Positions 20,474 through 26,701 of a stretch of DNA of 64,000 nt are shown one piece after another. Under the pieces are notes generated by a model that did no database searches, was not told the origin of the DNA, and saw only the letters and a list, made by a program, of their open reading frames with translations. How positions within the stretch are numbered: the first letter of the stretch is position 1; the number at the start of each line of letters is the position of its first letter. The DNA is taken from the NCBI RefSeq assembly GCF_011043775.1, contig NZ_JAAKXY010000004.1:124001-188000 (forward strand), written 5' to 3'. Made by a program: the position numbers and the translations under genes. The stretch is from Natronolimnobius sp. AArcel1. Lineage in GTDB: Archaea > Halobacteriota > Halobacteria > Halobacteriales > Natrialbaceae.

Positions 20474-23400
20474 TCAGGCTTCAGCCTGCCAGTTGCGAAT
20501 CCGGTCCGCACTGACGCCGTCGACGCTCTCGGCGACGGCGTCGGGGTCGGCGTCGCTCAGATCAGACAAGCTCTCGATACCTGCCGCGACGAGCTTTTCG
20601 ACGGTTTTTGCGCCGACGCCCTCGAGCGCCTCGAGATCAGAGCCGGAGTCGCTTTCGCGGGCCTGGAACTCCTGATAGTTACAGATCGGACAACCCAGTT
20701 CCCAGGGTTCGTCGCCGCTGTGGACCAGCAGTTCGGGGAGATCGTGTTCCTCGCAGCGCTCGTCGGTGACTTCGATGTCGCCGCGTCGAGGCAGCGGCAG
20801 AGAGTACTCGCAGTCGGGATAGCGCGTACAGCCGACGAGTCGAGAGCCACTCTGGAGGGTTTTGACGGCGAGTTCGCCGTCGTGTTCATCTCCGCAGTCT
20901 GGACACGCACCCAGAACAGGCCCTTCGCCCGCATCTTCGGCCTTACAGAGCGGGCAGCCGTGGACGAACGTCTGGCGACCCGCGAGCATCTTCACCTCGT
21001 TCAGGCCGTGCTCGTCGCACTCGTCCTCGAGGATGAGCGGCTTGCCAGTCGAGGGCAGCGGCAGGGTGTTCTCACAGTCGGGATAGCCGTCACAGCCGAT
21101 GAAGTACGAGCCGTGGCGGCTGTTTCGCACGAGCAGGTCCTCGCCGCAGTCGGGACACGGCCCGAGTCGCTTGTCGTCTTTGAGCGACTTGCGCAGGTGA
21201 TCGCCGATTTCGTCGCGCGACTCCGCGAGATTCGCGAAGATTTCTTCCAGCATCTCGCGAGATTCGTCGGTCACGTCCTCGAGTCCGGCCTCGCCGCTGG
21301 CGATGGCGTCCATGTCGGCCTCGAGTTGGGCCGTCATGCCCTCGCTGACGACGCGGTCGGCGTAGTTCTCCGCGGCGTCAACGACCGCCATCGCGAGTTT
21401 GGTGGGTCGCGGTGGATCACTCTCGATGTAGCCCCGGTCGTACAGTTTCTCGAGGGTGTTGTGCCTGGTCGAGTTATGAACGACGATACCACCTTCGATT
21501 GCAAAATTTGGTGCTGCATCGGAAACGGTAAGATCGTACACCGCTCCGTCGTAGTCACGCTCGCTTAGATCGGTGACTGTCGTCGACGACGGCAGGCCGA
21601 GGAGTGTCGCGTATATCGACGATTTGAAGCCGTCAGCGGTATATCGGAACGTCCTGTTTCCGTCGTGACTCCGATTGCTCCCCTCAATCTCGGTTTCAAT
21701 ATACTCGTCCTCCTTGAGTTCGGACACGGTGGTTTGTGCCAGCGGCTGTGAAATCTCGAGTTCGTCGGCAATTTCATCGGTCGTGAGCGCTCGATCGGCG
21801 AGCGTTGCAAGCAGTTCAGCTTTTCGCTCAGTAACGGGATATGCGCGCAGTGAATCGAGCCCGCGATGGAATTTCCAGTCACAAGAGATCGGAACGGTAT
21901 CGAGGAACCGCTCGAGAGTGCGACGACCACGAATGTGTAGTTTGTGCTGGCCTGCGGCGAGTTTCGTTTCAATATCCAACGCCGAGAGCAGTTGTTGAAC
22001 TGCGCCCAGCAAATCGTGATCGGTATTTGAGATAAACGCCTTCCGATCGGTGGAGAGGTGTCCTTCGTCGTCGAACAGCGCGCCAATAAACCACGGAGCG
22101 TATACCGTCGGAACGTTCGGTACACCGTCGGTTGATACCTCTTCGAGAACAACGTGGAGAATGCGACCGACCGCTGCGGGAACGTTCGCCTGATATCTCG
22201 TTTTATGATGGGTCTTCCGACCAGGTTGTTCGGTTATAGTGGGACGAACGCCGAACACGGACTCGATATCCGTGGCGAATCGCTCGATCAATCGACGGTC
22301 CGTGTTGTGGTACCGGATGTCGACGACGTTCTCGGTTTCGTCGACGTACACTGATCCGTCACCGAGCAGATTGCCAAGTAGTCGAGCGAGCGCGGGACTC
22401 CACTGAATCGGGAAGGGGTTCTCGAACGTAACGTCGTTGTTCAATCCGTGAAGCCCGTCGGGCTCAATGCCGAGTTCACCGAGAATCCACACGGGAACGT
22501 CCCGATGATCGTTCTCGAATTCGCTGATGTGGCTCCGATCGGCACCGACCGTTGCTGCAAGTTCACGCTGGGTCTGTCCAGTCCGTTCTCGATACGCGGC
22601 GAGCGCGTCGTTCGCACCGGTCCCATACAGTTTCGAATCGACGGTGCAGTTGGCAGCGAACGTCCCCCAACTGACGGCAACCGGCCCGTCGTCTGCTGCG
22701 TACTCCGTCGGGTCGCTGCGGACAGTAAGTAACTCCTCACCTGGTTCGATTGCTTTCGCAGGACGAACGTCGAATCCATCCTCGGTAGTGACGTACAGGG
22801 GATGATCGTCCGTCACCGAGAACGTTCCCGCTGGCGTCACGATATCGAGAACGCGTTCGTCGTCACCGAGCGGTCGCTCGCTTACGAGCGTCGTCTCTTG
22901 GTCTTCAACGAGACCGGTTTGTTCATTAAGCGACAGTGTCGTCGGTGTTTCCGATGTCGTCGCAATATTGGTATCGCCATCGGCCATGACGACCTGACCG
23001 CTCTCAAAGAGTTCCTGTACCGGTGAGCGAACGATTTCGACATCGGATCGATGGAGAACGGTCGTGTCCGCGGTGAGACATTTCGTCCCAATCCCCATGT
23101 CCTCCATGGTCTCGATGAGCCGCGACTGGCCGTATCGGCGAGGTGGCTGGGTCTCTTTGTCCTCGAGTTCGACATCGGTGAGTGCGAGTTCCTCGCCTTC
23201 GTCGACGTCAGGGACGTAGTTCTCGCTGGTGTTGAAGTACGGGTAGACGTCGTGGTAGCCGGCCTCGACGAGGCGTTTGCCGTTTGCCTTGAGCCGGCAG
23301 TCGGCGGCCTCGGAGACGACTTTGAGGTGCTCCCAAATCGCCGGATCAGCGACGGTCGCGTAGAATCGGCGAACGACCAGTTCGTACACTTCCCACTCGT

Positions 23401-24565
23401 CGTCGCTTACGTCGCCGCCGCGGGCAGGAATCTCGCCAGTCGGATGAATTGGCGGGTGGTCGGTCGTCTCCTCATCGCCCTCGGTTGGCTCGATTTCGTC
23501 GGCCTCGAGAAGATCCTCAGCAGATTCGCCGAGCGTCGGATGGCCGACGAAGTCATCGAGCAGTTCCTCGGGGTCGAGGTCGTCGGGGTAGACGGTGTTG
23601 TCGGTTCGCGGGTAGGTGATGTAGCCGGCGGTGTAGAGGTCCTCGGCGATGGACATCGCGCGCTGGGCGGAGTAGCCCAGTGAGCCGGCTGCGCGGATGA
23701 ATTGAGTGGTGTTGAACGGCGTCGGTGGGTCGTCGGTCCGCGTACGGCGGTTGACGTCGACGACGGTCGCGGAATCGTTCTCGGAGAGTGTTTCGTAGAC
23801 CTCCTTGGCAGTGGCTTCGTCCCAGACGCGCTCGGCCTCGTTGTCGTCTTCGTCGCGGTAGAAGTACTGGGATTCGAAGCTGGTCTCATCCTTATGCAGG
23901 TCGGCAAACAACTCCCAGTAGGACTCAGGATCGAACGCTTGAATCTCGCGTTCGCGGTCGACAATCAACTTGAGCGTCGGCGACTGCACCCGGCCGACGG
24001 AGATGAAGTCGTTGCCGAGTTGGCCGGCAGAGAGCGAGAGAAATCGCGTGAGTGCAGCGCCCCAGACGAGGTCGATAATCTGGCGTGCCTCGCCTGCGGC
24101 GGCGAGGTCGAAATCAAGCTCGTCAGGGTTGTTGAATGCGTCTTGGACCTCGTTTTCCGTGATCGAGGAGAACCGAACCCGTCGAATTGGGACATCTTCG
24201 TTGACCTCGCGGACGATCTCGTAGGCCTCCTTGCCGATGAGTTCGCCCTCGCGGTCGTAGTCTGTCGCAATCGTCGCCGTCGTCGCTTTGCGCGAGAGAA
24301 TCCGCAACGTTGCGACGATGTTCTCTTTGGTCGCTTTCTTCTCGACGCTGGCGTCGATCAGTTCGACAGGTTCGACGTCGCGCCAGTCCGAATACTCCGA
24401 TGGGAAATCGACACCGACGACGTGGCCCGACAGCCCCACGCAGCGTTTGCCACCCCACTCGTAGATGTTGACGCCGTTCTCGCGACTCGAGTCGTACGTC
24501 CCACCTGAGAGGATGTCTGCGATTCGTCGTGCAGCGTTTTCCTTCTCGGTGATGATCAGTTCCAC
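20474..24565 (-). CDS. topA: DNA topoisomerase I (topA) interrupted by an intein
   Basis: A 1363-residue precursor; without the intein 827 residues, the normal archaeal size. The Toprim domain (residues 1-140) has ITEKENAARRIA and TDYDREGELIG with its Mg-binding acids. The strand-cleaving Tyr is Tyr318 in YITYPRTD. After the core come four Cys units (such as CPDCGEDL ... GCDGYPDC, and CPDCGDEH ... GCTRYPDC) and a C-terminal helix-hairpin-helix (LEALEGVGAKTVEKL). The intein lies between Lys495 and Ser1032 within the conserved IGTK-STRHN segment. The gene is divergent from the globin transducer. Without splicing the enzyme should be inactive. Confidence 0.95.
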   Translation of the reverse strand: MELIITEKENAARRIADILSGGTYDSSRENGVNIYEWGGKRCVGLSGHVVGVDFPSEYSDWRDVEPVELIDASVEKKATKENIVATLRILSRKATTATIATDYDREGELIGKEAYEIVREVNEDVPIRRVRFSSITENEVQDAFNNPDELDFDLAAAGEARQIIDLVWGAALTRFLSLSAGQLGNDFISVGRVQSPTLKLIVDREREIQAFDPESYWELFADLHKDETSFESQYFYRDEDDNEAERVWDEATAKEVYETLSENDSATVVDVNRRTRTDDPPTPFNTTQFIRAAGSLGYSAQRAMSIAEDLYTAGYITYPRTDNTVYPDDLDPEELLDDFVGHPTLGESAEDLLEADEIEPTEGDEETTDHPPIHPTGEIPARGGDVSDDEWEVYELVVRRFYATVADPAIWEHLKVVSEAADCRLKANGKRLVEAGYHDVYPYFNTSENYVPDVDEGEELALTDVELEDKETQPPRRYGQSRLIETMEDMGIGTKCLTADTTVLHRSDVEIVRSPVQELFESGQVVMADGDTNIATTSETPTTLSLNEQTGLVEDQETTLVSERPLGDDERVLDIVTPAGTFSVTDDHPLYVTTEDGFDVRPAKAIEPGEELLTVRSDPTEYAADDGPVAVSWGTFAANCTVDSKLYGTGANDALAAYRERTGQTQRELAATVGADRSHISEFENDHRDVPVWILGELGIEPDGLHGLNNDVTFENPFPIQWSPALARLLGNLLGDGSVYVDETENVVDIRYHNTDRRLIERFATDIESVFGVRPTITEQPGRKTHHKTRYQANVPAAVGRILHVVLEEVSTDGVPNVPTVYAPWFIGALFDDEGHLSTDRKAFISNTDHDLLGAVQQLLSALDIETKLAAGQHKLHIRGRRTLERFLDTVPISCDWKFHRGLDSLRAYPVTERKAELLATLADRALTTDEIADELEISQPLAQTTVSELKEDEYIETEIEGSNRSHDGNRTFRYTADGFKSSIYATLLGLPSSTTVTDLSERDYDGAVYDLTVSDAAPNFAIEGGIVVHNSTRHNTLEKLYDRGYIESDPPRPTKLAMAVVDAAENYADRVVSEGMTAQLEADMDAIASGEAGLEDVTDESREMLEEIFANLAESRDEIGDHLRKSLKDDKRLGPCPDCGEDLLVRNSRHGSYFIGCDGYPDCENTLPLPSTGKPLILEDECDEHGLNEVKMLAGRQTFVHGCPLCKAEDAGEGPVLGACPDCGDEHDGELAVKTLQSGSRLVGCTRYPDCEYSLPLPRRGDIEVTDERCEEHDLPELLVHSGDEPWELGCPICNYQEFQARESDSGSDLEALEGVGAKTVEKLVAAGIESLSDLSDADPDAVAESVDGVSADRIRNWQAEA
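21473..23080 (-). mobile_element. intein with LAGLIDADG endonuclease and two HTH domains, in topA
   Basis: The 536-residue intein runs from Cys1 (CLTADTTVLH) to Asn536 (GIVVHN), with Ser as the +1 extein residue. Block B TDDHPLYV holds His93; block F is AVYDLTVSD; the end has the His535-Asn536 pair. All splicing residues are present. The inserted nuclease (about residues 228-400) has two LAGLIDADG motifs, LARLLGNLLGDG (Asp241) and WFIGALFDDEG (Glu339). Two further helix-turn-helix units are seen, at residues 155-205 and 415-485. Base composition looks lower in GC than the surrounding topA, consistent with foreign origin. Confidence 0.93.
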
Positions 24566-24823
24566 AGCGACTCACCCCCGTGAGGGCAGGCCCCCGTCGT
24601 CGGCGCTGACACAGTCGGAAGCACTCGACGAGTCAGCGAACGCTCGATTCTCATTGTCGCCGGCTACGGCTGAAATGCTGATAATCCTTTCGCCGAGAAA
24701 CCGCCCGACAGCGCGGGTGTGCGTGCGCTCGAGCGCGATTGCCCGTCGCGTGCGTCGCGCGATGGTGGCCGGGGATGGCCGAAGTCACAACCACTATACT
24801 CACCGGGTAGTGAAGTAGTGGCA

Positions 24824-26701
24824 ATGCCGCAATCCGGCCCGACCCAGTCGCGTCTTGGCCTCCGCCAGGATGTCGACGAGGACGCCTTACTCGAGGGGAT
24901 TGATCTTGACGCGGACGATATCGCGTGGCGAAAGCAGTTCATCGGCTTCGATGCAGACGACGAAGCCCGACTCGCCGCGCTGACGCCGACGTTTGACCGT
25001 CTCGCCGACGAGTTTGCTGGGGAGTTTTATAGCCATCTGACTGCACATGAGGAAACCAAAACTGTCCTCGGTCGGTCCGACCGGACGCTCGCCCAACTCG
25101 AGCGGACGCAGGCCGAGTACCTCCGAAGCCTCGGCGAATACGCCTACGACGAGGGGTCAGATCCCGGCTACGGTGCGGATTACTTCCGTCAGCGTGCAGT
25201 CATCGGCAAGCTTCACAGCATGCTCGAGATGCCGGCCAAGCAGTATATCGGCTCGTACATGCAGTATCACGAGCGATTGCTGTCGGAACTCTTTGCGCAG
25301 TTTCTCGCAGATATAGCAGACGACCTCGAGCCAGAGACGCACGACCGAATCGCAGCGCGAGCCGACGAGACGCTCGAGGATGCCCTGTCGGTGCTTCGCG
25401 TGACGAATCTCGATATGCAGGTCGCGATGGACACCTACCTCGAGAGCGAGGCCGAAGACGTCTGGACGAACGTTCTCGAAGAGATGCTCTCACCCGTGAT
25501 CGCCATCGACACGGATGGCAAAATCGTCGCCTATAACGATGCGATGGCGGAGTTGACCGGCGTCACAGCATCCGAAGCGACCGAGATGGAACTGTGGGAA
25601 CTGTTCCGAACCGACGAGAGCCACGACACGCGAGAAACCGCAATCGAACACGCGTTCGCAACCGAGGAACCGATCCGAGAACTCGAACTCGAGATTCTAA
25701 CCCACACCGGGGAGACGCGAGAGGTCATCTGCTCGAACGCGCCGATGTACGACGAAGACGGCGACCTCATGGGGGCCGTTTCGGTCATGCGCGACGTGAC
25801 CGATCTGCGCCAGACAGAACGCGAACTCGCAGCCGCCAGACAGCAGGTATCGACCGAGATCGGCACGCTCGCGACCGAACAGGAGACGACCGCGCGGGAC
25901 ATCGCCGAGACGATGGACGACCTCGAGTCGCGCGCAGCGACACAGGTCGAGATGGCCGAAGAGATGCAGACGGAACTGCAGGAGTACGGCGCGACGATGG
26001 AGCAAGTTGCCGCGAGCGCCGAGGAGGTCGCAAGCGCCGCCGACGAATCGAAACAGGTCGCGACGGCGGGCCTCGAGACCAGCGTTGAGGCCCAGGAAGG
26101 CATGACGGAGGTCGTCAAGACGGTCGACGAACTGATGGAGACCTCGACGACGCTTCGCAACCGGATGAAAGAAATCGACGACATCGTCGACGTGATCCGG
26201 GACGTGGCCGATCAGACGAACCTGCTTGCACTGAACGCGAACATCGAAGCTGCCCACGCCGGCGAGGCGGGCGATGGGTTCGCCGTCGTCGCGAACGAAG
26301 TCCAGTCACTCGCCGAAGAGACGAAAGAACACACGCATGAGATCACAACCCGCATCGAGACGATCCAAAATCAGACCGCCCGAACCGTTGCCGCCGCTCA
26401 GGAGACCAACGAGCGAGTCAGACGTGCAAATGCGGACATCGACGACGCCGTCGAGTCCTTCGAGGAAATCGCCGCCGTCGTCGACGAAGCCGCGACGGGC
26501 ATCGAAGAAATCGCGACAGCAAACGATGAACAGGTCGACAGCGTCGACGAGATGATCGCCCTCGCCGCGGAGTACGCCGCCCACTCCGAAGCCGCCCTCG
26601 AGTCCGCAGAAGAAACCGCGGCTATCGTCGACGATCAACTCGAGACGGCAGAACAGATTCGGGACCGGATCGAGGCCTTCGAGGCAGAACGCGAGCAGTA
26701 A
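24824..26701 (+). CDS. globin-coupled PAS sensor/methyl-accepting transducer (HemAT-like)
   Basis: A 625-residue soluble protein without membrane helices. Order: protoglobin domain (about residues 30-185; proximal His131 in [12 protein letters not shown]), PAS domain (about 210-325; [22 protein letters not shown]), then a chemotaxis signalling coiled coil with the hairpin tip [22 protein letters not shown] (about 465-485) and Glu/Gln-rich methylation helices. It should sense oxygen through haem and signal to CheA. The known HemAT of Halobacterium lacks a PAS domain, so this has an additional sensor. The ATG at 24824 was chosen as the upstream frame is not globin-like. Confidence 0.9.

Follow-up and report, generated by a model that had tools for sequence, protein, structure and literature searches.

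A haloarchaeal topA intein with predicted helix-turn-helix modules on both sides of its LAGLIDADG nuclease

A handful of structures from thermophiles have shown that intein nucleases can carry accessory helix-turn-helix (HTH) domains. Beyer et al. (2022) described solved nuclease-bearing inteins as a Hint domain, a nuclease, and an accessory domain, and the accessory domain of TliVMA resembles the HTH of the phage 434 repressor (PMC8966425). Deleting the Tli accessory domain reduced cleavage of lambda DNA, and deletion and swaps of this HTH domain pointed to promiscuity, i.e., a nuclease carrying the domain is more promiscuous (PMC8966425). An HTH-like accessory domain and a domain IV are also reported for PI-TkoII (PMC8966425). 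As for haloarchaea, the survey by Soucy et al. (2014) lists topA inteins in four Halobacteria and one other euryarchaeon (PMC4071816), and in vivo homing of a haloarchaeal intein was shown for Haloferax polB (PMC3024317). The term helix-turn-helix is absent from two papers on haloarchaeal inteins (PMC10643990 and PMC3024317).

The window, i.e., the whole stretch of DNA that we analyzed, comprises 64,000 nucleotides from Natronolimnobius sp. AArcel1 (contig NZ_JAAKXY010000004.1). It contains the gene for DNA topoisomerase I, topA (20474..24565, minus strand), whose ORF encodes 1363 amino acids, intein included, and matches Pfam Topoisom_bac (6e-119), Toprim, and two stretches of Zn_ribbon_Top1. 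Translation of this ORF places an in-frame intein of 536 residues exactly at 21473..23080 (minus strand, residues 1–536 running from 23080 down to 21473), in agreement with the coordinates given in the initial annotation. The N-extein (23081..24565, minus strand, 495 residues) ends in GIGTK, and the C-extein (20474..21472, minus strand) begins with STRHNTLEK. Adjoining topA on the opposite strand is an ORF (24719-26701, plus strand) that resembles, by eye only, a globin-coupled (HemAT-like) transducer.

The N-terminal half of Hint (22706..23080, minus strand, residues 1–125) and its C-terminal part (21473..21610, minus strand, residues 491–536) together hold a complete set of Hint motifs: a nucleophile at position 1, a TxxH block B, a C-terminal HN, and a nucleophile at +1. 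The Pfam Intein_splicing match to this copy falls below the family cut-off. In an alignment of 17 homologues, Cys1, Thr90/His93 of block B, and His535-Asn536 (21473-21478) are invariant, and Ser occupies +1 in all 17. The LAGLIDADG nuclease (21872..22414, minus strand, residues 223–403) is matched by two stretches of Pfam LAGLIDADG_3 (E 3e-16), and its model aligned with the I-DmoI fold over 168 residues (Z 16.9, 2.9 Å) in a structure comparison. Its two acidic residues, Asp241 in a GDGS motif (codon 22358-22360, minus strand) and Glu339 in a FDDEG motif (codon 22064-22066, minus strand), are likewise invariant across the 17 homologues. These observations bear out two proposals of the initial annotation, complete splicing blocks (Cys1, His93, His535-Asn536, and the +1 Ser) and intact LAGLIDADG acids, and they show an intein whose LAGLIDADG nuclease has both motifs and both acidic residues.

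Ahead of the nuclease lies an XRE module (22415..22687, minus strand, residues 132–222), for which the initial annotation had proposed an XRE/Cro-type HTH at residues 155–205. Pfam HTH_31 matches residues 160–196 of this copy with E 9e-6, just under the Pfam cut-off since it scores 26.4 bits against 27, and the family matches all 17 haloarchaeal topA inteins at E<=0.001. Profile comparison of the segment with the PDB returned DBP48 (1.7e-6), HipB (about 1e-5), C.BclI (4e-5), and the 434 repressor (about 1e-3). AlphaFold2 (AF2) placed helices at 157–167, 171–178, 182–189, and 197–203, outside the Hint and nuclease segments, and modeled the module alone with a pLDDT of 94.5. Foldseek with this lone model put XRE-type HTH proteins near the top, HipB and C.BclI among them (best E 3e-3, probability 1.00, none below E 0.001), and VIA gave modest scores (Z up to 7.1, 2.1 Å over 54 residues). 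Judged from sequence and model, residues 157–203 (22472-22612, minus strand) are an HTH core of the XRE/Cro superfamily, slightly shorter than first proposed.

Following the nuclease is a MarR-like winged-helix module (21626..21847, minus strand), and here too the early proposal, a winged helix at 415–485, stood with a small shift to 412–485. Pfam MarR_2 matches residues 417–466 of this copy above the cut-off (E 3e-6) and is found in 16 of the 17 haloarchaeal topA inteins. The PDB profile matches are solved MarR/ArsR-type proteins, AdcR (6e-8) and MJ223 (4.5e-6). The AF2 model has three helices (415–429, 434–441, and 445–457) and a wing of two strands (461–466 and 477–482), all outside the Hint and nuclease segments. 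By profile and predicted fold, residues 412–485 are a MarR-like winged helix. The whole-intein AF2 model was built on a 22-sequence alignment (pLDDT 89.6, pTM 0.88) and has separate HTH helices in both segments. We conclude from these sequence matches and models that the two HTH units are real, far beyond chance; chance resemblance was rejected on the PDB-profile matches and on the Pfam counts of 17/17 (HTH_31) and 16/17 (MarR_2).

Full-length homologues were found in 17 of 391 haloarchaeal genomes, the window's own included. All 17 are inserted at one topA site, GTK/STRH (the slash marking the insertion point), and are colinear, aligning end to end; by this shared site and full-length alignment, the window intein belongs to the haloarchaeal topA allele. 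The initial annotation had implied a rare layout. The layout is indeed present, and it is standard in the 17 haloarchaeal topA inteins, which carry both units as ordinary parts, rather than peculiar to this genome; the annotation had itself named this outcome as one that would refute its reading. A scan of the genome collection with a single-sequence query gave no matches; a query built from the 17-member alignment gave matches. These added more haloarchaea, as well as bins labeled Woesearchaeota, Aenigmatarchaeota, and Nanoarchaeota with inteins at the corresponding position of topA; the bins are metagenome assemblies with taxon labels as deposited. These DPANN inteins share the site and most of the layout: Pfam found both HTH types in L049 and L051, winged-helix families only in L048, and the XRE type only in L052. 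Two copies, L052 (3501-4862) and L053 (2-1090, beginning inside the intein because its contig does), retain the XRE module, nuclease, and Hint C terminus and have no winged-helix segment, so the winged helix is not essential everywhere. L050 meets an assembly gap. The two copies without a winged helix form a natural deletion series for that module. Widening the profile search from the class to the phylum (295 genomes) returned only haloarchaeal topA inteins.

The closest described systems share features with this intein. Like the allele listed by Soucy et al. (2014), the window intein sits in DNA topoisomerase I (PMC4071816), and every topA intein in our searches occupies the same site. TliVMA (7qss) and PhoVMA also combine Hint, a LAGLIDADG nuclease, and an accessory domain (PMC8966425), but they have a single accessory domain and another host gene and site, whereas the window intein has two, XRE before and MarR after the nuclease. 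The best whole-model PDB match by Foldseek and VIA was the homing intein PI-TkoII/PI-PkoII (2cw7, 537 residues), with a VIA Z of 22.8 over 346 aligned residues, 16% identity, and 20.7 Å rmsd; given that rmsd over 346 residues, the domains match those of PI-TkoII and their placement does not. PI-TkoII, whose host is a DNA polymerase rather than topA, appears from the profile alignment to carry extra sequence both before (about 137–272) and after (about 416–492) its nuclease. Haloarchaeal MCM (cdc21) inteins also combine LAGLIDADG with XRE-type HTH units, but their Pfam-matched HTHs follow the nuclease, with none matched before it, whereas the XRE module of the window intein precedes it. One such intein, of 642 residues, lies in the same genome (L002, G000:C2:364296-364748 and around; locus 1072-2997). 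It has LAGLIDADG and, toward its end, an XRE HTH that is significant in Pfam (HTH_3 2e-8); by eye, as many as three stretches that follow the nuclease look HTH-like. Multi-HTH inteins look common in haloarchaeal MCM, because in L021 (904-2490) and L026 (880-2466) HTH_3 matches twice beyond the nuclease (E 8e-15 and 5e-13). We also asked whether other haloarchaeal inteins share the XRE module and rejected this: a search of 242 haloarchaeal genomes with the module together with its junction to the nuclease returned topA inteins and, apart from these, nothing but a weak match in another frame, of 252 residues. Haloarchaeal topA inteins (PMC4071816) and HTH accessory domains on intein nucleases (PMC8966425) are already published. 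In the open-licence literature, we found no description of topA inteins that pair XRE before the nuclease with MarR after it, a pairing conserved across haloarchaea and DPANN bins; this result is weak evidence of absence.

The distribution of the intein has the traits of a homing element, with in-frame insertion at a conserved site for which intein-free alleles exist and with differing histories of intein and extein. A congener (L063), whose TopA is 96% identical in the N-extein, has an exactly empty site. The window exteins are 89–90% identical to those of L004, L008, and L012, whereas identity to their inteins is only 56%, and the L004, L008, and L012 inteins are 83–94% identical among themselves. 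This difference between extein and intein identity indicates that the window intein came from another lineage and was acquired separately; the donor lineage is absent from our sample. Nei-Gojobori dN/dS, a simple counting method, pooled over six close pairs gave 0.146 for Hint N, 0.141 for XRE, 0.151 for the nuclease, 0.144 for the winged helix, and 0.166 for Hint C. Because dN/dS is equal in all parts, both HTH modules appear to be kept by selection, constrained like the catalytic parts, and on the same grounds (six close pairs, simple counting) we rejected the view of the HTHs as decaying passengers.

The net charge of the XRE segment is acidic in all but one of 26 members (25/26), which by sequence does not favor strong DNA binding by this module, although acidity is a general feature of halophilic proteins. 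In contrast to all other measured segments, which are acidic or neutral, the winged helix is net positive in 19/26 members. Within its wing motif GSNRS (residues 467–471) Arg470 is invariant, and Arg476 is present in 24/26. In the window copy, the wing is kept, and the family recognition-helix pattern SRGRVNxxVREL reads SQPLAQTTVSEL, without the common Arg/Asn positions of the family and with most basic residues gone. The net charge of its winged helix is −9, and those of L003, L011, and L018 are −7, −9, and −5. The acidic, off-consensus form (21626-21847) is partly shared with L003 and L011. Going by this sequence, the winged helix of the window copy may recognize different DNA or have a low affinity.

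We consider it likely, from sequence, models, and analogy, that this element is a homing intein of full length, belonging to the topA allele of haloarchaea, and that both HTHs are accessory domains of its endonuclease, probably in contact with DNA. With its splicing residues intact, the Hint halves would assemble and splice the translated TopA, removing the intein and ligating the exteins. Once released, the intein would be a homing endonuclease with a specific site: its pseudo-symmetric LAGLIDADG core would cut intein-less topA at GTK/STRH, and repair from an intein-bearing copy would spread the element. The pattern of mobility is shown by the comparisons above. The XRE HTH and the winged helix would probably contact DNA that flanks this site and adjust affinity or specificity, a role we infer from their fold, position, and conservation and from the published work on other archaeal inteins; in the window copy, DNA contact by the winged helix may be weaker or different.

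It is unlikely that the HTH modules are instead structural spacers or stabilizers that position the Hint halves and the nuclease, their DNA contact lost. The acidity of the XRE module across the family and the −9 of the window winged helix would fit such a role, as would the TFIIB inteins, in which an inserted nuclease domain supports splicing geometry (cited in PMC6801210). Against this role stand the conserved wing with Arg470 and Arg476 and a winged helix that is net positive in most members, and two DPANN copies, which have cleanly lost this module, evidently do without it as a spacer. We think it quite doubtful that the intein is a three-module reader, in which the XRE module and winged helix flanking the nuclease would bind DNA independently and either define an extended composite target or repress the expression or splicing of topA, and in which some clades, the window included, would have re-tuned the recognition helix of the winged helix. 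A simple longer-target reading, which the initial annotation had raised alongside autoregulation, is not safe, because the Tli accessory domain made its nuclease more promiscuous. Improbable as well, and distinctly so, are regulatory HTHs that would autoregulate topA or make splicing conditional on DNA and so tie TopA maturation to the state of the DNA: the folds belong to repressor families (HipB, the 434 repressor, and AdcR), and a published summary covers the RadA intein, whose splicing is conditional on ssDNA (PMC8987985), but the patchy occurrence of the intein (17/391 genomes) and its absence from the congener indicate a host that does not depend on it, and constraint on the HTHs is no greater than elsewhere in the intein. 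A misreading of usual nuclease or Hint sub-folds as HTHs has a negligible probability, since, although HTH motifs are short and the window HTH_31 score is just under the cut-off, independent Pfam matches in 17/17 and 16/17 members, PDB profile matches at 1e-5 to 1e-8, separate HTH helices in the AF2 models, and the natural loss of one module all argue against it.

The topA allele provides a natural series of inteins at a single target: in haloarchaea, purifying selection maintains both modules, some DPANN copies have lost the winged helix, and other copies have an altered recognition helix in that module. In published work, one accessory domain makes its nuclease less specific, a result that leaves a question about homing range, and topA inteins would be a good system in which to ask how accessory domains affect it.
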